This document shows, piece by piece, positions 29,123 through 57,836 of a stretch of 64,000 nt of DNA. Position 1 is the first letter of the stretch. Each line of letters begins with the position of its first letter. Below the pieces are notes generated by a model that saw only the letters and a program-made list of their open reading frames with translations, was not told the DNA's origin and searched no databases. The position numbers and the translations under genes were made by a program. Source of the DNA: a virus. The stretch spans positions 1 to 64,000 of the IMG/VR virus record IMGVR_UViG_3300025280_000026; one strand, written 5' to 3'.

Positions 29123-30880
29123 ATGTCTGTTTTGCAAAAGTTGACTGAAGGTCTTGTTAAACGTGATCTCCAGAAGGAAGGTGCTGCTCTCATGGATAAA
29201 TGGGAAGCCACAGGTCTTCTTGAGGGTCTTAACAGTGACCACAATAAAAATACAATGGCTCGCTTGCTTGAAAACCAAGCTTCTGAGCTACTTAGAGAGG
29301 CCAGCTCAATGGCAGCTGGTGACGTCGAAGGTTTTGCTTCCGTAGCATTCCCTATCGTTCGTCGTGTCTTTGGCGGTCTTATCGCCAATGATCTTGTTTC
29401 CGTCCAACCGATGAGCTTGCCTTCGGGCCTCATCTTCTTCATGGACTTCACATACAACGATGGCCGACTCGGCGTCGACTCTGGAGATTCCCTCTACGGT
29501 GGAGGCGTTGTTGGTAAAAACATCATCAGCGGTACATCGGATATCACTGAAGCAGGCGGCGGGTTCTATAACCTTGCCAACCACTATTCTTCGGTTACCG
29601 CTTCCGCCGACGTCACCGTGAGCGCTCACGCAACGTCGGGCGACGTCCCGGGCGCTACAGGTGTGGATGTTTCTGCATTCACCGAAGCCCATAAGAAAGA
29701 TGTACGTTTTGATGCGGATTTGCTGGCCAACACATCTTACAATGTGCGCCATTACACCATCGATGCTGACGAAGATCTCGAAGGTCTTAATCATGATGCT
29801 CTCGGAGCTATTAATTGGACTAATTTGGGCGACACAACTAATGATAGTGTTGTTCGTCGTTTGACCAAATACGTTCGTAGCACAGGCCTGGTTCACCTCT
29901 ATGTCCAAGCTACTGACGGCGCCGGGACCGACGATGCCGGAGGTTCTAAAACAATTGTTTATCCAGTTAAGGATACTTTTAACAAAAGCAACCTTGGTGC
30001 TGTTGTTGGTTCAACCCCGTGGGGACTTGAAGCTGCTGATAATAGCTTCCGTCAATCTGACAACGTTGACTGGGATCAAAATAGTGGCGCCGGCGACAAG
30101 AACAGGATTCCTGAGATTGACATCAAGGTCGACAGCGTGTCTGTCACCGCGATGACCAAAAAGCTCAAGGCCAAATGGACGCCTGAGCTTGGGCAAGATC
30201 TCAATGCTTACCACAACCTCGACGCGGAAGTTGAGCTTACCTCGATTCTTTCTGAGCAGATTGCTCTTGAAATCGATCGTGAGATTCTCAACGACCTCGT
30301 TCAAGGTGCAACCGCTGGTACGTATTACTGGTCTCGTTCACCTGGTTTATTTGTCGATAAGACAGCTGGTACCGAGCTTGGTGCTACTGCTGCTGCCCCG
30401 GATTTCACCGGTACAGTTAGTGAGTGGTATGAGACACTTGTTGAGACAGTCAACGATGTGTCGGCTCAAATTCACCGTAAGACTCTTCGCGGTGGAGCCA
30501 ATTTCCTCGTGACTTCACCAGAGGTTGCCAATATTCTTGAGTTTACTTCTGGTTTCCGCGCTAGTGTTACAGCTGATGCCGATCGTGGTGTCGTAGGTGC
30601 GGTTAAGACAGGTGCGCTTAGTAAGAAATGGGACGTTTACGTCGATCCTTACTTCCCGCGTAATCTTGTTCTTGTTGGTCGCAAGGGAGGAAGCTTCCTT
30701 GAGAGCGGTTATGTATACGCTCCTTACGTGCCCCTGCAAGTCACGCCTACCATCTTTGGTACGGAAGACTTCACGCCACGCAAGGGTGTGATGACCCGCT
30801 ACGCAAAGCAGATGGTCCGTCCTGATATGTACGGTCTCGTCGTGGTTCGCGGATTACTTGGTGAGTCTGGCGCAAGCTAG
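29123..30880 (+). CDS. Major capsid protein (gp23-like)
   Basis: 585 residues after a TAGGAGGAAATTAAAA site. The gp23 family core is clear: FP.VRRVFGGLIANDLVSVQPMSLPSGLIFFMDF, and near the C-terminus GYVYAPYVPLQVTP and RKGVMTRYAKQMVRPDMYG. Like T4 gp23 it has an N-terminal propeptide; L-R-E before A60 (ELLRE/ASSM) fits the (I/L)-x-E cleavage rule of gp21-type proteases, close to the E65 site in T4. The region about 125-330 is longer and more Ala/Asp/Thr-rich than I expect and may be an insertion domain. Codons here are GC-richer than in most neighbours, consistent with high expression. Confidence 0.93.
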   Translation: MSVLQKLTEGLVKRDLQKEGAALMDKWEATGLLEGLNSDHNKNTMARLLENQASELLREASSMAAGDVEGFASVAFPIVRRVFGGLIANDLVSVQPMSLPSGLIFFMDFTYNDGRLGVDSGDSLYGGGVVGKNIISGTSDITEAGGGFYNLANHYSSVTASADVTVSAHATSGDVPGATGVDVSAFTEAHKKDVRFDADLLANTSYNVRHYTIDADEDLEGLNHDALGAINWTNLGDTTNDSVVRRLTKYVRSTGLVHLYVQATDGAGTDDAGGSKTIVYPVKDTFNKSNLGAVVGSTPWGLEAADNSFRQSDNVDWDQNSGAGDKNRIPEIDIKVDSVSVTAMTKKLKAKWTPELGQDLNAYHNLDAEVELTSILSEQIALEIDREILNDLVQGATAGTYYWSRSPGLFVDKTAGTELGATAAAPDFTGTVSEWYETLVETVNDVSAQIHRKTLRGGANFLVTSPEVANILEFTSGFRASVTADADRGVVGAVKTGALSKKWDVYVDPYFPRNLVLVGRKGGSFLESGYVYAPYVPLQVTPTIFGTEDFTPRKGVMTRYAKQMVRPDMYGLVVVRGLLGESGAS

Positions 30881-49554: not shown

Positions 49555-50745
49555 TTGTATTTTCAAGTCATTGACGATAAGACAGAGTGCATTGGCGTTT
49601 ACGCAAATGAAAAAATATATTATGACGAGATGCCAAAGGGCATTTCAAAGACATGGAAGTATACTTCGATCCTACGCGATAGAAATGATATAGAATATGC
49701 TAGTTTATATTGTGGCGGAGAAAACTTGGAAAAAGCATGTCCAGAACATTTGCAAACGCGATTACACAATGTGCTTGACCGCTTCAAAGCATATTTAATT
49801 TCGTTTAAAGAAGCAAAGATATCGTTATATGATAATTGCTTTTACGATTTAGTTCCAGAGAGGTTCGTGTTAAAATATTGTGATGTGAAAAATCAAATTA
49901 CAAAATATATTTTTGAGAATTACGACAAGCCCAAGAATTATAATTTTCTTGTCTCTCTAAGCAAAGTTCTGGAAGATATTAAATATCGAGCCCTTCAATT
50001 GGATTTTGATGGTTTTGATTTTGGTTCTGTGGGAGGAAGGGCCTTCCATAAAAAAATCAAGCAAATCAATCCTTATATCGCATATGATATTTTTGGTTCT
50101 AGAACTGGACGCTTAACAACCAAGAAAAAAAGCTTTCCTATTTTGACTCTAGACAAGAAATATAGGGGCACCTTAAAACCAAATAACGACTATTTTGTCG
50201 AATTAGACTTTAACTCAGCCGAGATCAGGACTTTCTTGGCCCTCCAAGGCCTCAAGCAGCCCAAGGAGGATATTCATACCTGGATTGGTGAGAACGTCTT
50301 TAGGGGCCAAATAACCCGTGAAGAAACAAAGAAGAAGTTTTTTGCATGGTTGTACAATCCTGAAGCAAAAAATGAGGTTCTGGAGAAAATTTTTGATAAA
50401 AATAAAATATTAGAGAAATATTGGGATGGTGAACAAGTTGAAACACACTATGATCGAAGAATAAAAGCTGGTAAGAAGCATGCCTTGAATTATTTAGTAC
50501 AGAGTACCACAAGTGATTTATTTTTGCGTCGCGTGATCGACATATGGGATTTTTTGAAGGGAAGGTTAACCCACGTTGCTTTTTGTATACATGATTCGTT
50601 GATATTAGATTTTTCTATAGAAGATAAGCCACTACTAGAAGGGATTATCGATACATTTTCAAATACAGAATTAGGGAGATTCAAAGCCAATGTGAGTATT
50701 GGAAAGAATTTTGGTGAAATGAGGAAACTAGAATGGAAACAGTAA
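49555..50745 (+). CDS. Short family A DNA polymerase
   Basis: 396 residues from a TTG after GAAAGAGGTTTGTT. The Pol I palm and fingers motifs are present: TGRLTT (184-189), motif A VELDFNSAEIR (D218, E223, R225), the O-helix R255...K259...F263...Y267, NYLVQSTTSDLF (312-323) and motif C HDS (346-348). There is no recognisable 3'-5' exonuclease domain; T7 polymerase has 704 residues and E. coli Pol I 928. Replication of most T4 relatives relies on family B gp43, so this is a marked difference. It overlaps the tubulin-like gene by 13 bases. A separate proofreading exonuclease may lie outside the window. Confidence 0.82.
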   Translation: MYFQVIDDKTECIGVYANEKIYYDEMPKGISKTWKYTSILRDRNDIEYASLYCGGENLEKACPEHLQTRLHNVLDRFKAYLISFKEAKISLYDNCFYDLVPERFVLKYCDVKNQITKYIFENYDKPKNYNFLVSLSKVLEDIKYRALQLDFDGFDFGSVGGRAFHKKIKQINPYIAYDIFGSRTGRLTTKKKSFPILTLDKKYRGTLKPNNDYFVELDFNSAEIRTFLALQGLKQPKEDIHTWIGENVFRGQITREETKKKFFAWLYNPEAKNEVLEKIFDKNKILEKYWDGEQVETHYDRRIKAGKKHALNYLVQSTTSDLFLRRVIDIWDFLKGRLTHVAFCIHDSLILDFSIEDKPLLEGIIDTFSNTELGRFKANVSIGKNFGEMRKLEWKQ

Positions 50746-51593
50746 TAGGTTTAGGTCAAGCTGGTTGTAAAATAGCAGAACAGTTTGCAAAATATCCCCA
50801 GTATGACGTTTATCGAATTGATTCTGAAAAGAGACAGGGAAACAAATTTAAACATATTAAAGAATGCGATTCACATGAGGAGTATGAGAACAAGTGTCCT
50901 TCATTCAAAAGATTTTTTAAAAATGTAAAACCACCTTATCTTTTTATACTTTCCGGCGCAGGATCCATTTCTGGCTCGGCCTTAAGAATAATGGAACAAT
51001 TAAATTCTGATGATATATACGTTCTATATATAAGGCCAGACACCTCGTTACTATCCGAGATCAAGAAAAAGCAGGAGAGAGCAGGTTTTCATGTGTTACA
51101 GGAATTCGCTCGTTCTGGGTTGCTCAAAAGAATGTTTTTGGTTGATAACACAAAAGTAGAAGAGCTTATACAAAATCTTCCAGTAATCGGTTATTATGAT
51201 AAATTAAATGAAATGATAGTATCTGTGATGCACATGATAAATTGTTGCATGAATTCTAAACCGGAGCTTGAAACATTCGACGATCCACCAGAAACTGCGA
51301 GGATATCAACTTTGGGAATTGTTGAGCTAGAAACGGGCAAAGAAAGTTTATTTTTTGATTTAAAAATGCCTCGTGAAAAGGTATACTTCTATATGATTCA
51401 TGAAGATAAATTAAAGAATGACGGAGAGTTATTAAAGACCATAACGAGCCAAGTTCGCTCAAGGATGGAAGGTGGCAACATACAGACGTCATTTGGGATA
51501 TACTCCACGGAATATGAACAAGGGTACGTTTATGTTCTTGCACACACTTCTTTAGTACAAAATGAAATTTTTTATTTGTCTGATAAGAATTAG
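50733..51593 (+). CDS. Tubulin/FtsZ-superfamily-like protein
   Basis: 286 residues, coupled to the polymerase gene (13-base overlap, GAGGAAACTAGA before ATG). The order of motifs follows FtsZ/tubulin: an N-terminal Rossmann strand-loop VIGLGQAGCKI (residues 4-14, T1 loop), a phosphate-loop SGAGSISGSA (74-83) in the place of GGGTGSG, the LVDNTK strand (136-141) matching FtsZ VIPND, then helix H7 (MIVSVMHMINCCM) and a C-terminal beta domain. G75, G77, S80 and G81 keep the tubulin signature; two positions deviate. Phage tubulins (PhuZ) of jumbo phages position the replication centre. GTPase or filament formation is not proven by sequence. Confidence 0.6.
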   Translation: METVIGLGQAGCKIAEQFAKYPQYDVYRIDSEKRQGNKFKHIKECDSHEEYENKCPSFKRFFKNVKPPYLFILSGAGSISGSALRIMEQLNSDDIYVLYIRPDTSLLSEIKKKQERAGFHVLQEFARSGLLKRMFLVDNTKVEELIQNLPVIGYYDKLNEMIVSVMHMINCCMNSKPELETFDDPPETARISTLGIVELETGKESLFFDLKMPREKVYFYMIHEDKLKNDGELLKTITSQVRSRMEGGNIQTSFGIYSTEYEQGYVYVLAHTSLVQNEIFYLSDKN

Positions 51594-51675: not shown

Positions 51676-52428
51676 ATGGGTATTGATATGAAGAAGATGA
51701 AGTCAAAGCGGGAAGCTTTGCAAAACCGTGGAAGCGGTGGGAGTAACAAGGAAATGTTTTGGCGTCCTCAAGACGGCGAGACCACAATCCGCATTGTCCC
51801 AACTGAAGACGGTGATCCGTTTAAGGATTTCTGGTTCCATTATAATGTGGGCAATAATCCTGGGTTTTTGAGCCCGAAGAAAAACTTCGGTGAGGATGAT
51901 CCCCTTGATAGTTTTGTAAGGAGTCTCTTTAAGGAGGGTTCAGATGATAGCATCAAGATGGCCAAAAGTTTGATGGCCCGCCAACGTTTCTTCGCACCAG
52001 TCTTGGTTCGAGGGGAAGAGGACAAAGGAGTCCGTGTCTGGGGCTTCGGCAAGATGGCTTATCAAGAGTTGCTTAACCTTGTTCTCAATCCAGACTATGG
52101 TGATATTACTGATATCTCAGAGGGTACCGATTTGGTAATTACTTACGGCAAACCCCCGGGAGCACAATTCCCGCAAACGACCATTACGCCTCGCCGTCGG
52201 CCGTCACCCTTGTCAAGTGTCAAGAAGGATATCAAGACGTATCTTGAGCAAGTACCTGATTTTACTACGCTTTTCGAGCGTAAGACCCCGGTACACGTTC
52301 AAGGAATGCTCGATGAATTCCTCTTGGGCGAAGAAGCAGAGGAGAATTCAACGGAAACTAAGAAGTATAAAACAGATACTGACAAGGCATCTTCCGTTGA
52401 TGAGGCTTTCGCAGAATTTCTTGGTTAA
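51676..52428 (+). CDS. Single-stranded DNA-binding protein (gp32-like)
   Basis: 250 residues after AAAAGGAGAATTTAC. A basic N-terminal arm (MKKMKSKREALQNR) precedes the OB-type core with aromatic and basic residues (WRPQDGETTIRIVP, DFWFHYNV, RQRFFAPVLVRGEEDKGVRVWGFGKMAYQELL), followed by an acidic tail ending VDEAFAEFLG, the usual docking site for replication partners. T4 gp32 has 301 residues and a zinc finger that is not evident here. It coats single strands for replication and recombination with the RecA and SbcCD-like proteins of this phage. Confidence 0.82.
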   Translation: MGIDMKKMKSKREALQNRGSGGSNKEMFWRPQDGETTIRIVPTEDGDPFKDFWFHYNVGNNPGFLSPKKNFGEDDPLDSFVRSLFKEGSDDSIKMAKSLMARQRFFAPVLVRGEEDKGVRVWGFGKMAYQELLNLVLNPDYGDITDISEGTDLVITYGKPPGAQFPQTTITPRRRPSPLSSVKKDIKTYLEQVPDFTTLFERKTPVHVQGMLDEFLLGEEAEENSTETKKYKTDTDKASSVDEAFAEFLG

Positions 52429-52535: not shown

Positions 52536-53837
52536 ATGAAAAAAATTAAATTAAATCTGCCGCCTGGGCAGCCATTCTTAACAAACGGGAATGGAGTATA
52601 CGACGTGTATGTAATACCGTCTTTGGAATGCGGATTAGACCAAATACCAAAAGGTCTGAATCCTCGGGATCTGGACCCGGAGTGTACAAAAGTTAAAAAC
52701 ATCAAGGCCAGCTTTTTAAAAAATGACAATATGTTTATAACCAAGTGCGGTGGCATGCAAGTTACTATAGATAACGACTCTTTTGAGTTCGATTCAAATA
52801 ATAGTTGTGTCACTTTCACTTGCGAATGGGGTCATAATCCACCACGGCCGATCGCAGAAGGTCGATCTGGTCATTATGATGGTCAACATAGTGGGTACGC
52901 TATAACCACGGCTCTTCAAGAAAATCCAAATGTTAATGAGGAGGTTAAGGTGACCCTCGTGGAGCAGCGCGTGTTTAAAACTATTGATGAAAACCGCGAC
53001 GCCACCAACTGTTGGAATGACAGAACCAATCAAAAGCAGTCTAGCGAACAAAACATGCGAGGACTTTTTGATGATCTGAAAAGCAATATCAAATATACTG
53101 ACCTTAAAAATATTGGATGGAAACAATATCAGAAAAACGTCAATGGTGAGAAAATAACTGCCGCGAATGAGGTACAACAAGTCATCAGACTTTTATCTAC
53201 CTACTTCCCTCTAACTTATGAACCGGGCCTTGGTGTTCCTTATATCGCGACACTTCCTAAAGCTGGAGAGAAAACAGCGATCAATATGTTAACAAACGAC
53301 AAATATAAGCCGTATACTCTTCCCACACAAAAACATGTGGATTATGTTTTAGAACTGTCTGATTATATTCAGAGCACTATGGAGAATATTTTGGGCAGTG
53401 ATTTTAATGAATTTCCATTAATTAAACAATCCGGCGCCAAGCAGCTTCTTAAGCAGCCAAGCAAAAGAAGATTTTTTAGAACAAATTTATTCAATGGTCA
53501 GGAAGCCATCGGTGCCCTTAACAAAGACTATATTTTGATGTTCGTATACGCAGTTGTTAGTAACTGCTATGAATGGGATGAAAAGAGACAAGAATATGAT
53601 CAAAAGCATTCTATTGCCTCCGCAAAAGCAATCTGGTCTGAATACGGCAAAAGGCTGCTCGATGAAGTTAATAGAGATTTTATAGCGTCTTTTGCAAATT
53701 CGAGCAAATCGAGAAAGTCTGATTTTGTTAATCAGCACACCAAGTGGGGTCTACTCTCACACTTAATTTTCAAAGGAATGAGGGATAACAAGTGGAAGAA
53801 TAGAATCAATACTTCTCTTAAAGCAAAGGCAGCTTAA
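52536..53837 (+). CDS. DGQHR/AIPR-like protein of unknown role
   Basis: 433 residues after CAAGGAGAATAAA. The motif HYDGQHSGYAI (D115, Q117, H118), the following strand VKVTLVEQRVF, and N-RTNQKQSSEQN..GLFDDLKSNI (N165-Q166) follow the layout of DGQHR/DndB and AIPR families, in which DGQ-H/T is followed by a conserved N-Q helix. Those bacterial proteins are linked to phosphorothioate modification control or abortive infection; the biochemical function is not settled. The C-terminal 170 residues are helical and unrecognised. It lies between SSB and RecA and is bracketed by a repeated leader element, so it is part of the replication regulon. Confidence 0.55.
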   Translation: MKKIKLNLPPGQPFLTNGNGVYDVYVIPSLECGLDQIPKGLNPRDLDPECTKVKNIKASFLKNDNMFITKCGGMQVTIDNDSFEFDSNNSCVTFTCEWGHNPPRPIAEGRSGHYDGQHSGYAITTALQENPNVNEEVKVTLVEQRVFKTIDENRDATNCWNDRTNQKQSSEQNMRGLFDDLKSNIKYTDLKNIGWKQYQKNVNGEKITAANEVQQVIRLLSTYFPLTYEPGLGVPYIATLPKAGEKTAINMLTNDKYKPYTLPTQKHVDYVLELSDYIQSTMENILGSDFNEFPLIKQSGAKQLLKQPSKRRFFRTNLFNGQEAIGALNKDYILMFVYAVVSNCYEWDEKRQEYDQKHSIASAKAIWSEYGKRLLDEVNRDFIASFANSSKSRKSDFVNQHTKWGLLSHLIFKGMRDNKWKNRINTSLKAKAA

Positions 53838-53844
53838 ATGCCAC

Positions 53845-53877
53845 ACCACAGGGAGGCATGGGTTTATAGATGCCTCA
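53845..53877 (+). repeat. Leader element copy B, upstream of recA
   Basis: Near-identical to copy A (one base deleted, few changes): ACCACAGGGAGGCATGGG then TTTATAGATGCCTCA. GAGGCA (53853-53858) pairs with TGCCTC (53871-53876). It ends 20 bases before the preferred GTG start of recA and includes the alternative upstream ATG in its right arm. Confidence 0.75.
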
Positions 53878-53896
53878 TTCAATATATGGAGAAAAA

Positions 53897-54997
53897 GTGG
53901 CCAGGAAAGCTAAAAAACTAGGAAAGCTCAGCATGGATGACATGCGAAACCTAATCAACAGAAAAGCAGGATTAGACGTTGCACACGATCTGAGAGAAGA
54001 GAATCCAACTGAAGTAAAACAATGGATTCCAACTGGATCAACTTGGCTGGATAATATCATATGCAGAGGCAAAAAAGCAGGAATTCCTGTTGGCAAGATA
54101 TCAGAGATTGCTGGACTAGAGGGATCCGGAAAATCATGGATGGCTGCAGAAATCGCCACCAACGCTCAGGAAATGGGCATAGACGTCGTTTACTTCGATT
54201 CTGAATCTGCCATAGACCCAAGCCTCTTGGAGCGCTTAGGAGTTGATTTAAACCGGTTCCTGTACGTTCAAGCTTCGAGCGTGGAATTTGTGTTGGAAAC
54301 GATTGAGGAACTTCTTGGTTCGAATGATGGCCAAATGTTGTTCATTTGGGATTCGCTAGCTTTAACACCGGCAATTACAGATGTGGAGGGTGATTTTAAT
54401 CCCCAATCATCGATGGCTGTCAAAGCTAGAATTTTGGCCAAAGGCATGTCGAAGCTGACAGTACCAATCGCGAATACACAATCAACGTTTTTGGTACTAA
54501 ATCAACTTAAAACAAATATCGCATCCAATCCTTCACAAAGGATGCAAATAATGACTACTCCGTATGTGACCCCAGGTGGAAAAGCAATGCATTACGCATA
54601 TTCACTACGTATCTGGCTTACTGGTCGCAGGGCTAAATCTTCCTTTATTATGGATGGCGACGACCGCGTAGGATATCAGGTGCAAGTGAAACTTGAGAAA
54701 TCACGTTTCGGAACATCTGGTCGAAGATGTCATTTTAAGATTATGTTTGCTGGAGAAGTTGGTATCCGTGATCAAGAGAGCTGGCTAGAAGCGTTAGCCG
54801 GTTCTGAAAACCTAACACAATCCGGTGCATGGTATACTTTACGTTATGAAGATGAGACCACTGAGAAATTTCAATCAAAAAATTGGGTTGAAAAAATAAA
54901 TAGCAATGAACGCTTTCAAGAAAGAGTGTTGGAGCTAATGGAAGAAGAGATTGTTCGGAAATATCAAAAAAAGACTGAACAAACCTCGACTGCATAA
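53897..54997 (+). CDS. RecA/UvsX recombinase
   Basis: 366 residues from a GTG preceded by ATGGAGAAAAA; an in-frame ATG 27 bases upstream lies inside the repeated leader hairpin and has poorer spacing, so the GTG is preferred. Visible RecA-type features are Walker A EIAGLEGSGKS (near residue 75), VVYFDSESA, the Walker B strand LFIWDSLAL and the loop region TPGGKAMHYAYS. It catalyses strand exchange for recombination-dependent replication and repair with the SSB and SbcCD-like proteins. The chain resembles bacterial RecA of about 350 residues and T4 UvsX of 391. Confidence 0.88.
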   Translation: MARKAKKLGKLSMDDMRNLINRKAGLDVAHDLREENPTEVKQWIPTGSTWLDNIICRGKKAGIPVGKISEIAGLEGSGKSWMAAEIATNAQEMGIDVVYFDSESAIDPSLLERLGVDLNRFLYVQASSVEFVLETIEELLGSNDGQMLFIWDSLALTPAITDVEGDFNPQSSMAVKARILAKGMSKLTVPIANTQSTFLVLNQLKTNIASNPSQRMQIMTTPYVTPGGKAMHYAYSLRIWLTGRRAKSSFIMDGDDRVGYQVQVKLEKSRFGTSGRRCHFKIMFAGEVGIRDQESWLEALAGSENLTQSGAWYTLRYEDETTEKFQSKNWVEKINSNERFQERVLELMEEEIVRKYQKKTEQTSTA

Positions 54998-55079: not shown

Positions 55080-55445
55080 ATGTCTAAAATAATTAAAAAT
55101 ATAGTTGCAGAAGTAATTGCAGACAAAGTGCAAGAAGCCGAATGTCTTATCCACACTTCTACAAAAGAAAATTTAACCGATGTCTTAACTTCTATCCGAG
55201 CAATATCGGGAGTTACAATTGTTAATTTAGTTGGCTCTTCACAAAAAGTTTCGGAAGGTAGAACAGCATCATATTTGAAAATTAAGTTTATACCCAATAT
55301 AACTTCTTCTGATAGCTATGTAAGAAACCTGGCGGATTACGTAAGAAATCTTCCAAGCGTCTTCACCTTCGAAGTCAAGAAAGTTGAAAACCTCAAACAG
55401 AAATTGGCGCGCAGGAAGCAACAAAAAGATATAATGAGTATTTAA
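55080..55445 (+). CDS. Unknown 121-residue protein in the replication block
   Basis: Alpha/beta protein (MSKIIKNIVAEVIADKVQEAE, then TSIRAISGVTIVNLVG, SYLKIKFIP and a basic tail KLARRKQQK). The repeated beta-alpha-beta layout suggests a small ferredoxin-like fold. Excellent ribosome binding site, 16 bases from the FEN gene. No family recognised, so role unknown. Confidence 0.6.
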   Translation: MSKIIKNIVAEVIADKVQEAECLIHTSTKENLTDVLTSIRAISGVTIVNLVGSSQKVSEGRTASYLKIKFIPNITSSDSYVRNLADYVRNLPSVFTFEVKKVENLKQKLARRKQQKDIMSI

Positions 55446-55461: not shown

Positions 55462-56439
55462 TTGAAAACTAAAAGATTGCTGTTAATTGATCAGCTAAAC
55501 TTGTTTTTTAGATCTTACATTGTTGATCCTTCTTTGTCCACTAATGGCCAACCCATTGGAGGTTTAAAAGGAGTGATAAAGGCATTGCAAAAAATCATCC
55601 GCGAGGCGAAACCTGATGAAATTATTATTTGTTGGGATGGCCGCGGAGGTTCTACAAAGCGCAAAATTATAAATAAAAATTACAAAGAAGGCCGAAAGCC
55701 CCCACGCCTTAATCGAGGGGACAGAATTCTTACAGAATCAGAAGAGCGAACAAACAAAGTGTGGCAACTTCAGAGGTTAACTGAATATTTCAATGAAATG
55801 CCGTTAATACAATTTATGTTCGATGGGGTCGAGGCCGATGACGTAATCGCTTATCTGGCAAAACACAAATATTATGAAGATTGGCAAAAAGTAATTGTTT
55901 CAAGTGACAAAGATTTTTTTCAACTTCTAGACACAACTACAGTTCTTTACAGACCAGTACAAAAACAGGTCTTAAACATGAAGACTTTAATAAAAAAACA
56001 CAATATACATCCTAATAATTTTGCTCTTGCGAGAGCAATGGTGGGTGATAAGAGTGACAATCTTGAAGGTGTAGGTAATATTGGATTAGCCACGGCCTAT
56101 AAAAGATTTCCTTTTTTACTGGATGAGAAGCCAGCTACCTTAACCGAGGTTTTAGATTATTCTAAAGAGCAGCTTAAAGAAAAAAAACTCAAAGCATATG
56201 AAAATATTATTAACAACGCTGATATCTTAAAGAGAAACTACAAGATGATGCAATTATACGCTCCCATCCTGGACATAAATGCAAAGAAAATACTTCGCGA
56301 GACAGTGCAAGGAGCAAAAATTAGTTTTAATAAAACAGAGATTATTAAGATGATGACACAAGATGGTTTTGGAGAGGTAAATTTTAATGAACTATTTGTC
56401 CATTTTAATAAGATAGTGGTTGACCAGAAAGCCATCTGA
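55462..56439 (+). CDS. 5'-3' exonuclease / flap endonuclease (RNase H-type, FEN family)
   Basis: 325 residues from a TTG after AGAGGAAAAA. The PIN-like core has LLLIDQLNLFFR (first acidic residue), IICWDGRGGSTKRKIINKNYK, VEADDVIAYLA and VIVSSDKDFFQLL, followed by the helix-hairpin-helix region GDKSDNLEGVGNIG. This is the family of T4 RNase H and the Pol I 5' nuclease that removes RNA primers. Since the family A polymerase here lacks such a domain, this gene would supply the activity in trans. Confidence 0.88.
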   Translation: MKTKRLLLIDQLNLFFRSYIVDPSLSTNGQPIGGLKGVIKALQKIIREAKPDEIIICWDGRGGSTKRKIINKNYKEGRKPPRLNRGDRILTESEERTNKVWQLQRLTEYFNEMPLIQFMFDGVEADDVIAYLAKHKYYEDWQKVIVSSDKDFFQLLDTTTVLYRPVQKQVLNMKTLIKKHNIHPNNFALARAMVGDKSDNLEGVGNIGLATAYKRFPFLLDEKPATLTEVLDYSKEQLKEKKLKAYENIINNADILKRNYKMMQLYAPILDINAKKILRETVQGAKISFNKTEIIKMMTQDGFGEVNFNELFVHFNKIVVDQKAI

Positions 56440-56462: not shown

Positions 56463-57836
56463 ATGATGAAAGAAGAACAGGTTAATTTTGCAAAATATGG
56501 TAAAAGTTTTCAGGAAACATTAGCTCAACTAATATTAGAAGACCGGCCTTTTGCAGACCAAATCGAGGAAGTTATTGATGTTAACTTCTTTGAATTAAAA
56601 TACCTTCGTGTTTTTATAAGTAAAGTATTTGAGTATCGAAAAAAATACGGGGTACATCCAACTAACAAGATTATAGCATCCGTGTTAAGAACGGAGCTGG
56701 ATAATGAGAATGAAGCTGTCCAAAAACAAGCAAGAGATTATTTTGCTAGGACACTTGCCAGGCCGGCTTCAGACACAAAATACATCAAAGAGACTAGTCT
56801 TGACTTTTGTAAAAAACAAAACTTAAAAAGAGCAATTTTGAAGTCTGTTGAGTTACTTCAGTCGTCGTCTTATGATGAAATTAAGGATGTCATTGATGAA
56901 GCTTTAAAATTGGGTGTTGATAATAATCACGGTCATGATTTCAAAAAGGATTTTGAACTTCGTTATACACTCCAAGCACGAAACCCTGTTTCGACTGGTT
57001 GGAAAATAATTGACGGCATCACAAAAAATGGTTTAGGCAAAGGAGAGTTGGGAGTCATTATTGCTCCAACCGGCGCGGGTAAATCAATGGCCCTAGCCCA
57101 CCTCGGCGCCATCGCTGTGAAGAATGGTAAAAGCGTCGTGCATTATACTTTGGAGCTTTCTGAAGCAATCACTGGCCAAAGATACGATAGTTGTATAAGT
57201 GGTGTCAGATTAACCGATCTTCTTTCAATGAAAGATATGGTGTATGAAAAAATTACCGATGTTGAGGGATCTCTGATTATAAAAGAGTATCCAACTCGTT
57301 CAGCAACTATAAATATTTTGCGCGCTCATCTAGAAAAATTAAAAAAAAGAAATCAAGAAATCGATGTAATTTTAGTGGATTACGCCGATCTGCTCAAACC
57401 TACATCAAATTATAAAGAGAAAAGGACTGAGTTGGAGTCTATTTATGAGAGTCTAAGAGCTTTAGCGCAAGAATATAATTGTCCAGTATGGACAGCATCC
57501 CAAACTAATAGATCTGGACTTAATGCAGAAGTTGTGACAATGGAATCGATTTCAGAGGCTTTCAGTAAATGTTTTGTTGCAGATTTTATACTTTCCATCT
57601 CTAGGACGATCAAAGATAAAAATGCAAATACCGGTAGAATGTTTGTTGCGAAGAACCGCAACGGCGTCGACGGTTTAGTATATCCAATTTTTATGGAACC
57701 AGCGACCGTCAAAATTAAAGTATTCGAACAGGAAGAAGATGCCGCCGAACTGTTGAGAGAAAAGACTCCGAAAGAACAAGCTGATGCAATAAAAGAGAAA
57801 TATAAGAATTTTAGAAGACAAGCAAGGGGGGCGTGA
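56463..57836 (+). CDS. Replicative DNA helicase (DnaB/gp41-like)
   Basis: 457 residues. An N-terminal helical domain leads to the RecA-type motor: Walker A IIAPTGAGKS (near residue 205), the HYTLELSE motif, Walker B DVILVDYADLL and the sensor ASQTNR. It unwinds DNA 5'-3' at the fork and partners the zinc/TOPRIM primase at 7.9 kb. ATGATG starts after AAAGGAAG; four bases separate its stop from the RNR start. Confidence 0.9.
   Translation: MMKEEQVNFAKYGKSFQETLAQLILEDRPFADQIEEVIDVNFFELKYLRVFISKVFEYRKKYGVHPTNKIIASVLRTELDNENEAVQKQARDYFARTLARPASDTKYIKETSLDFCKKQNLKRAILKSVELLQSSSYDEIKDVIDEALKLGVDNNHGHDFKKDFELRYTLQARNPVSTGWKIIDGITKNGLGKGELGVIIAPTGAGKSMALAHLGAIAVKNGKSVVHYTLELSEAITGQRYDSCISGVRLTDLLSMKDMVYEKITDVEGSLIIKEYPTRSATINILRAHLEKLKKRNQEIDVILVDYADLLKPTSNYKEKRTELESIYESLRALAQEYNCPVWTASQTNRSGLNAEVVTMESISEAFSKCFVADFILSISRTIKDKNANTGRMFVAKNRNGVDGLVYPIFMEPATVKIKVFEQEEDAAELLREKTPKEQADAIKEKYKNFRRQARGA

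Follow-up and report, generated by a model that had tools for sequence, protein, structure and literature searches.

The replication module of a widespread group of uncultured marine T4-like phages includes, as one of its core genes, a gene for a protein that almost certainly adopts the tubulin fold, judging from its predicted structure. The best reading of our results is that this protein belongs to a highly divergent, unnamed branch of the tubulin/FtsZ superfamily carried by these phages. Its founding sequence, P0001, is encoded in the window analysed here, a stretch of 64,000 nucleotides that forms part of an 83,587-base virus record. The original prediction had placed the gene at 50733-51593 on the plus strand, and this position was correct: the ORF runs from an ATG at 50733 to a TAG at 51593. 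The strand opposite holds many stops. As also claimed, its start overlaps the 3' end of a family A polymerase ORF (49555-50745), by 13 nt. The gene is under purifying selection, with a dN/dS of about 0.05 in two close pairs (dN 0.037 and dS 0.67; dN 0.13 and dS 2.6), and lies in the following setting:

29123 to 30880, + strand: T4-type major capsid protein gp23 (PF07068, E 1.5e-61)
49555 to 50745, + strand: small DNA polymerase of family A with 396 aa (E 3.9e-8 to Pfam DNA_pol_A; its 33.1 bits fall slightly short of the 34.3 cut-off)
50721 to 50725, + strand: putative Shine-Dalgarno-like GAGGA read from the sequence, within the polymerase gene and 7 nt before the tubulin-like ATG
50733 to 51593, + strand: tubulin/FtsZ-superfamily protein P0001, 286 aa (fold model, Foldseek, alignment)
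51676 to 52428, + strand: gp32-type single-stranded DNA-binding protein, SSB (Pfam gp32, E 1e-11)
53870 to 54997, + strand: RecA-type recombinase of the same replication module (Pfam RecA, E 1.6e-35)
55462 to 56439, + strand: 5'-3' exonuclease of the same module (Pfam 5_3_exonuc_N, E 5e-30)
56463 to 57836, + strand: replicative helicase of DnaB type in the same module (sequence motifs; the annotated DnaB of Flavobacterium phage immuto lies in synteny with it)

An AlphaFold2 model computed from 52 family sequences reached a pLDDT of 92.3 and a pTM of 0.90, superseding a poor model from 5 sequences (pLDDT 46.6), and it contains the features of superfamily membership, namely a nucleotide-binding Rossmann-like domain, the central helix H7 and a C-terminal domain. 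The FtsZ-like order of strands and helices that had been proposed for the protein was modelled with high confidence; details of the model are taken from its DSSP string, together with the alignment and residue spacing. In the Foldseek search of the PDB, each of the best 50 matches listed was a TubZ, an FtsZ or a tubulin (TMq 0.62-0.73 at 9-16% identity, E 1e-12 to 1e-10), and the top matches in BFVD, a viral library, carry the names FtsZ, cell division protein, tubulin and PhuZ. Model and fold search therefore agree with the tubulin/FtsZ-like identity that had been predicted, and neither returned a non-tubulin fold.

The evidence for homology to tubulins that comes from sequence only is modest. 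Searched as a single sequence, P0001 matched nothing above cut-off in Pfam, PHROGs, NCBIfam or the PDB. Among 52 family members, 12 touched Pfam Tubulin weakly (PF00091, 11-14 bits against a cut-off of 33, where a score was given), 14 touched TrkA_N and 7 weakly reached the FtsZ family NCBIfam TIGR00065 (best E 0.0059). A family profile built from 117 unique members and compared by hhalign with pooled FtsZ and PhuZ sequences scored 35.7 (P 4.2e-4), against 20.2 for the best of 60 column shuffles, 24.5 for the reversed profile and 28.3 for the highest-scoring of 12 unrelated families that these phages carry. The profile signal with PhuZ is weak and runs across the N-terminal half (P 4.7e-4), and no PHROG or tblastn match links the family to known PhuZ proteins. 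With FtsZ alone the result was borderline (score 23.0, P 0.032, reached by 1 of the 60 shuffles); the alignment nonetheless sets T1, T4, the T6 Asn and the H7 Asn on the conserved positions of the family. Comparisons with single FtsZ or PhuZ sequences were uninformative. The profile HMM check that had been suggested thus gave a mixed outcome, in which the family exceeds its shuffles with pooled FtsZ and PhuZ, but no Tubulin or FtsZ family is matched over its cut-off.

In iterated scans of IMG/VR the number of matching stretches rose from 7 to 14, 123 and finally at least 584, and we consider the gene very probably a member of a new family. No credible relatives were present in 50,697 phage records searched by tblastn with four diverse members as queries, where matches in Gordonia and Microviridae records were dismissed as chance, or in cellular genomes, which were covered by one pattern-based and hence not exhaustive scan. 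A viral scan with E. coli FtsZ as query gave no match, and FtsZ-bearing 'phage' records were set aside, as many resemble host DNA or unannotated contigs. In the literature that we searched, outside which most subscription papers lay, T4-like phages were nowhere described as carrying a tubulin-like gene. The phage tubulins in that literature are PhuZ and the TubZ of c-st, from large-genome phages (PMC7950403, PMC10299810, PMC7824862), and are reported mainly from nucleus-forming jumbo phages, plus the plasmid-like c-st (PMC7950403). Conservation within the family was counted over 80 representatives sharing less than 80% identity, and the elements concerned lie as follows in P0001:

50745 to 50774, + strand: T1-type glycine loop I-G-L-G-x-A-G-C-x-I, residues 5 to 14 (G6 in 78, G8 in 80 and G11 in 78 of 80 representatives)
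50952 to 50975, + strand: T4-type signature S-G-A-G-S-I-S-G, residues 74 to 81, family pattern G-x-G-x-x-[ST]-G (this relaxed form in 52 of 80, the canonical [SAG]GGTG[SAT]G in 0 of 80)
51147 to 51149, + strand: Asn139, equivalent of the FtsZ T6 asparagine, E. coli N165 (77 of 80; hhalign register)
51207 to 51209, + strand: Asn159 in H7, equivalent of the FtsZ H7 asparagine (78 of 80; hhalign register)
51252 to 51302, + strand: H7-S7 segment, residues 174 to 190, in place of the T7 loop and H8, with neither a conserved catalytic acid nor a modelled helix (motif count; DSSP)

P0001 does contain the two motifs cited in the original prediction, GLGQAGCKI as T1 loop and SGAGSISG as modified T4 signature, and the T4 positions that it had singled out are largely kept across homologues (G75 in 79, G77 in 68, S or T at 80 in 74 and G81 in 65 of the 80). 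As far as its residues tell, the nucleotide pocket is largely retained, with T1, N139 and N159 joined by an almost invariant D30, and because the contacts to base and phosphates are kept, the protein probably binds nucleotide. The alternative that had been offered, a nucleotide-binding-deficient relative, is therefore not the best fit, since most nucleotide contacts are kept and it is the elements for hydrolysis and for contact with the next subunit that have changed.

In FtsZ and tubulin filaments, T7/H8 and the T3 region reach across to the adjacent subunit and its gamma-phosphate. None of the 80 representatives has the catalytic T7 motif NxDxxD/E, and DxxD/E, which occurs in 12 of 80, shows no conservation; compared in the same way, 9 of 9 PhuZ sequences have DxxD and 7 of 8 FtsZ sequences have NxDxxD. 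The T7 acid that had been proposed at D183-D184 is not conserved, residue 183 being mostly S and residue 184 acidic in 38 of 80. Residue 187 is acidic in 58, and the catalytic acid may have been displaced, because 67 of the 80 carry an acid at 184 or 187. Helix H8 is absent from the AlphaFold2 model, where DSSP assigns coil to residues 181-190, and N159 and G195 lie 36 residues apart in every one of the 80 representatives, compared with 40 in E. coli FtsZ. T2 and T4 are closer together than in E. coli FtsZ by about 17 residues (median 45 vs 62), and the chain has no C-terminal tail, stopping some 15 residues or less past the last strand. With T7/H8 lost and the T3 region short, a dynamic filament driven by GTP is disfavoured, and the formation of PhuZ-like dynamic filaments is accordingly improbable. 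PhuZ T7 mutations abolish GTPase activity, yet non-dynamic filaments still form (PMC7950403), which leaves room for a static polymer. The chance that the protein forms a polymer of some kind falls a little short of even.

Besides the polymerase overlap, a T4-like genome and a family A polymerase had been predicted, and both were borne out, by the gp23 capsid gene and by the DNA_pol_A match, sub-cut-off as it is. SSB and RecA had been named as neighbours; SSB does adjoin the gene, but RecA is not adjacent, as a 433-aa ORF (52536-53837) intervenes. Among the 80 representatives, 65 of the 67 loci that could be tested have PolA upstream (the exceptions are L155 and L025, which has just 644 bases of upstream DNA), SSB lies downstream in all 76 testable loci, and in 44 of 65 the Pol stop is overlapped by the tubulin-like start codon. 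When the polymerase was used as query instead, to avoid selecting loci by the tubulin-like gene, all 79 testable loci of the 80 closest were found to carry it, L229 included, which is one contig with L141 and has the tubulin-like ORF of L141 in its PolA-SSB gap. Such order and overlap tell of genes expressed together, not of proteins that bind. In 17 of the 65 loci (e.g. L028, L088, L052, L011 and L019), PolA and the tubulin-like gene are separated by an insertion of 0.3-2.5 kb.

Each of 13 long records (84-204 kb) has one copy of the tubulin-like gene, and gp23 is present in 13 of 13. A sequence-level search with phiKZ ChmA, in which the positive control was found, detected chimallin in 0 of these 13 records, whose completeness is uncertain; at the same level and with the same uncertainty, neither a family B polymerase nor a gp45 clamp was detected in them. 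A 396-aa PolA with no family B polymerase or gp45 clamp found by sequence is an unusual replisome for T4-like phages. The idea that the tubulin-like protein replaces the gp45 clamp is not supported, because gp45 was also not found in two related phages that have no tubulin-like gene.

The family resembles known tubulin-type systems in part. It shares with PhuZ (phiKZ gp39 and relatives, in chimallin-encoding jumbo phages) a phage-encoded tubulin fold, a GGAG-type T1, I-D-T/S at the end of S2 and a relaxed glycine signature. However, PhuZ has the T7 DxxD and a C-terminal tail for filament assembly, both missing from the family, whose gene is fixed between polymerase and SSB in T4-like phages with no detected ChmA and no tblastn link to PhuZ. 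TubZ, of Bacillus and Clostridium plasmids and phage c-st, provides the best solved-structure match by E-value (4ei7, E 1.1e-12, TMq 0.66), although identity is 14%, TubZ is about 100 aa longer with a C-terminal tail, and its partners are TubR and a centromere, whereas the neighbours here are polymerase and SSB. Bacterial FtsZ is alike in fold (TM 0.65-0.73), in element order and in the register of T1, T4, T6 and H7, but the family does not have NxDxxD, a modelled H8 or the C-terminal peptide, and its T2-T4 region is shorter. The closest viral model, the FtsZ-like A0A6J5RW92 of an uncultured Caudovirales phage in BFVD (TMq 0.77, E 1.1e-12), has 452 aa and 18% identity to the tubulin-like protein. 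A precedent for such erosion exists in FtsZl1 and FtsZl2, in which T6-T7 and C-terminal elements are eroded, FtsZl1 T6-T7 being unrecognisable, and for which a novel filament mode or none was suggested (Makarova and Koonin 2010, PMC2875224). Those proteins are cellular, and FtsZl1 carries a C-terminal part with coiled-coil and helical regions and lies beside vWA/kinase genes, in contrast to the bare 280-aa fold in a replisome operon described here.

The gene is strictly linked to the polymerase, overlaps it and has SSB as its neighbour, all of which points to a function at the replicating genome, and the protein is likely to act in DNA replication or in the placement of replicating DNA. The original prediction went further in proposing a cytoskeletal protein that places or moves this DNA. 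Fold and replication-gene context agree with that proposal, and a PhuZ/TubZ-like dynamic filament centring or moving the phage DNA, with hydrolysis by a shifted acid (E/D187 or D/E184), would be consistent with the complete tubulin fold, including the C-terminal domain, with filament-formers as the best structural matches and with the acids carried by most members. The PhuZ-like dynamics are the part that does not hold up well, given the missing T7 motif, the absence of H8 from the model, the shortened T2-T4 region, the lack of a PhuZ/TubZ-style C-terminal tail, which TubZ uses (PMC5322520), and ChmA undetected in the long records; nor was a recurrent TubR-like neighbour noticed in an unsystematic look. 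Such a filament is thus unlikely. The loss of elements that face the next subunit, together with the nucleotide contacts that are kept, would also suit a monomeric nucleotide-dependent switch or sensor for the polymerase or SSB, helping for instance in loading or processivity with no self-assembly, and so would its coupling to a small PolA in records where a gp45-type clamp was not found. Immuto, however, has a PolA-type module with no gp45 match and no tubulin-like gene, which indicates that PolA phages can do without one, and we regard this switch as quite unlikely.

Other phages encode FtsZ inhibitors, and a protein mimicking FtsZ so as to poison or cap the filament of the host, blocking division during infection, would keep the nucleotide face of the longitudinal interface and alter the T7/H8 face, as is seen here. 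Such inhibitors are usually small, variable accessory genes, though, and the tubulin-like gene is core and keeps a syntenic place between polymerase and SSB, so that a mimic seems very unlikely. Least related to tubulins would be an NAD(P)/FAD-type Rossmann protein, to which the GxGxxG near the N-terminus and weak, sub-cut-off Pfam matches to TrkA_N, Sacchrp_dh and Pyr_redox_2 might point. This is hardly credible in view of the confident model, the Foldseek matches listed, and a second glycine signature, H7 Asn and C-terminal domain that follow tubulins; the TrkA_N/Rossmann matches were rejected on the predicted fold.

The fold is secure, and the mechanism that we infer is one in which a nucleotide, possibly guanine, would be bound in the tubulin-type pocket of a protein made together with the polymerase through translational coupling, and the nucleotide-loaded protein would work as a scaffold at the replication machinery. 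It might self-assemble or cap, but would do so without the T7-driven GTP hydrolysis cycle of dynamic PhuZ, TubZ and FtsZ filaments. Taken together, the retained contacts, the loss of T7/H8, the short T3 region and a possible static polymer make a scaffold or cap at the replisome, loaded with nucleotide, the preferred reading. We give an even chance to a divergent nucleotide-binding scaffold of the tubulin superfamily or a non-canonical replisome polymer, as opposed to a PhuZ-type dynamic spindle. More tentative, and rather doubtful at present, is the narrower proposal of an obligatory replisome part that has dropped the T7 switch and, loaded with nucleotide, joins the small PolA and SSB as a static scaffold or cap. 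If true, a widespread type of ocean phage would be putting the tubulin fold to a hitherto undescribed use.

Since a polymerase-overlapping gene of this kind is found in a large marine T4-like group, tubulin-type proteins appear to be core to phage DNA replication beyond the nucleus-forming jumbo phages. The superfamily is extended to hundreds of marine T4-like contigs, in a family that dispenses with the catalytic loop defining tubulin dynamics, and a large marine phage gene set left unnamed by Pfam, PHROGs and NCBIfam is given a name. Two questions become testable: can a tubulin fold take a direct part in DNA replication, and does assembly require T7/H8?

The cultured phages with the most similar replication modules, immuto and Microcystis phage Mel-JY01, have SSB, RecA, exonuclease and helicase in the same order, with PolA just upstream in immuto, and the tubulin-like gene is absent from the slot and elsewhere in both. 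The PolA-SSB slot of immuto (L101 1346-2318) holds two small ORFs of 151 and 171 aa, and the gene before SSB in Mel-JY01 (L102 4598-5884) has an S-adenosylmethionine lyase-family domain (Pfam E 4.4e-10). In the window, the 433-aa ORF between SSB and RecA is without a Pfam match and occurs in few of the related loci (a relative is present in L055), while a conserved 121-aa protein between RecA and the 5'-3' exonuclease (55080-55445) recurs in many relatives. The SSB-RecA gap of L003 (6816-7859 and 7859-8671), L047 and L050 carries a gene that by eye is ParB/sulfiredoxin-like and a Dam-type DNA methyltransferase-like gene.
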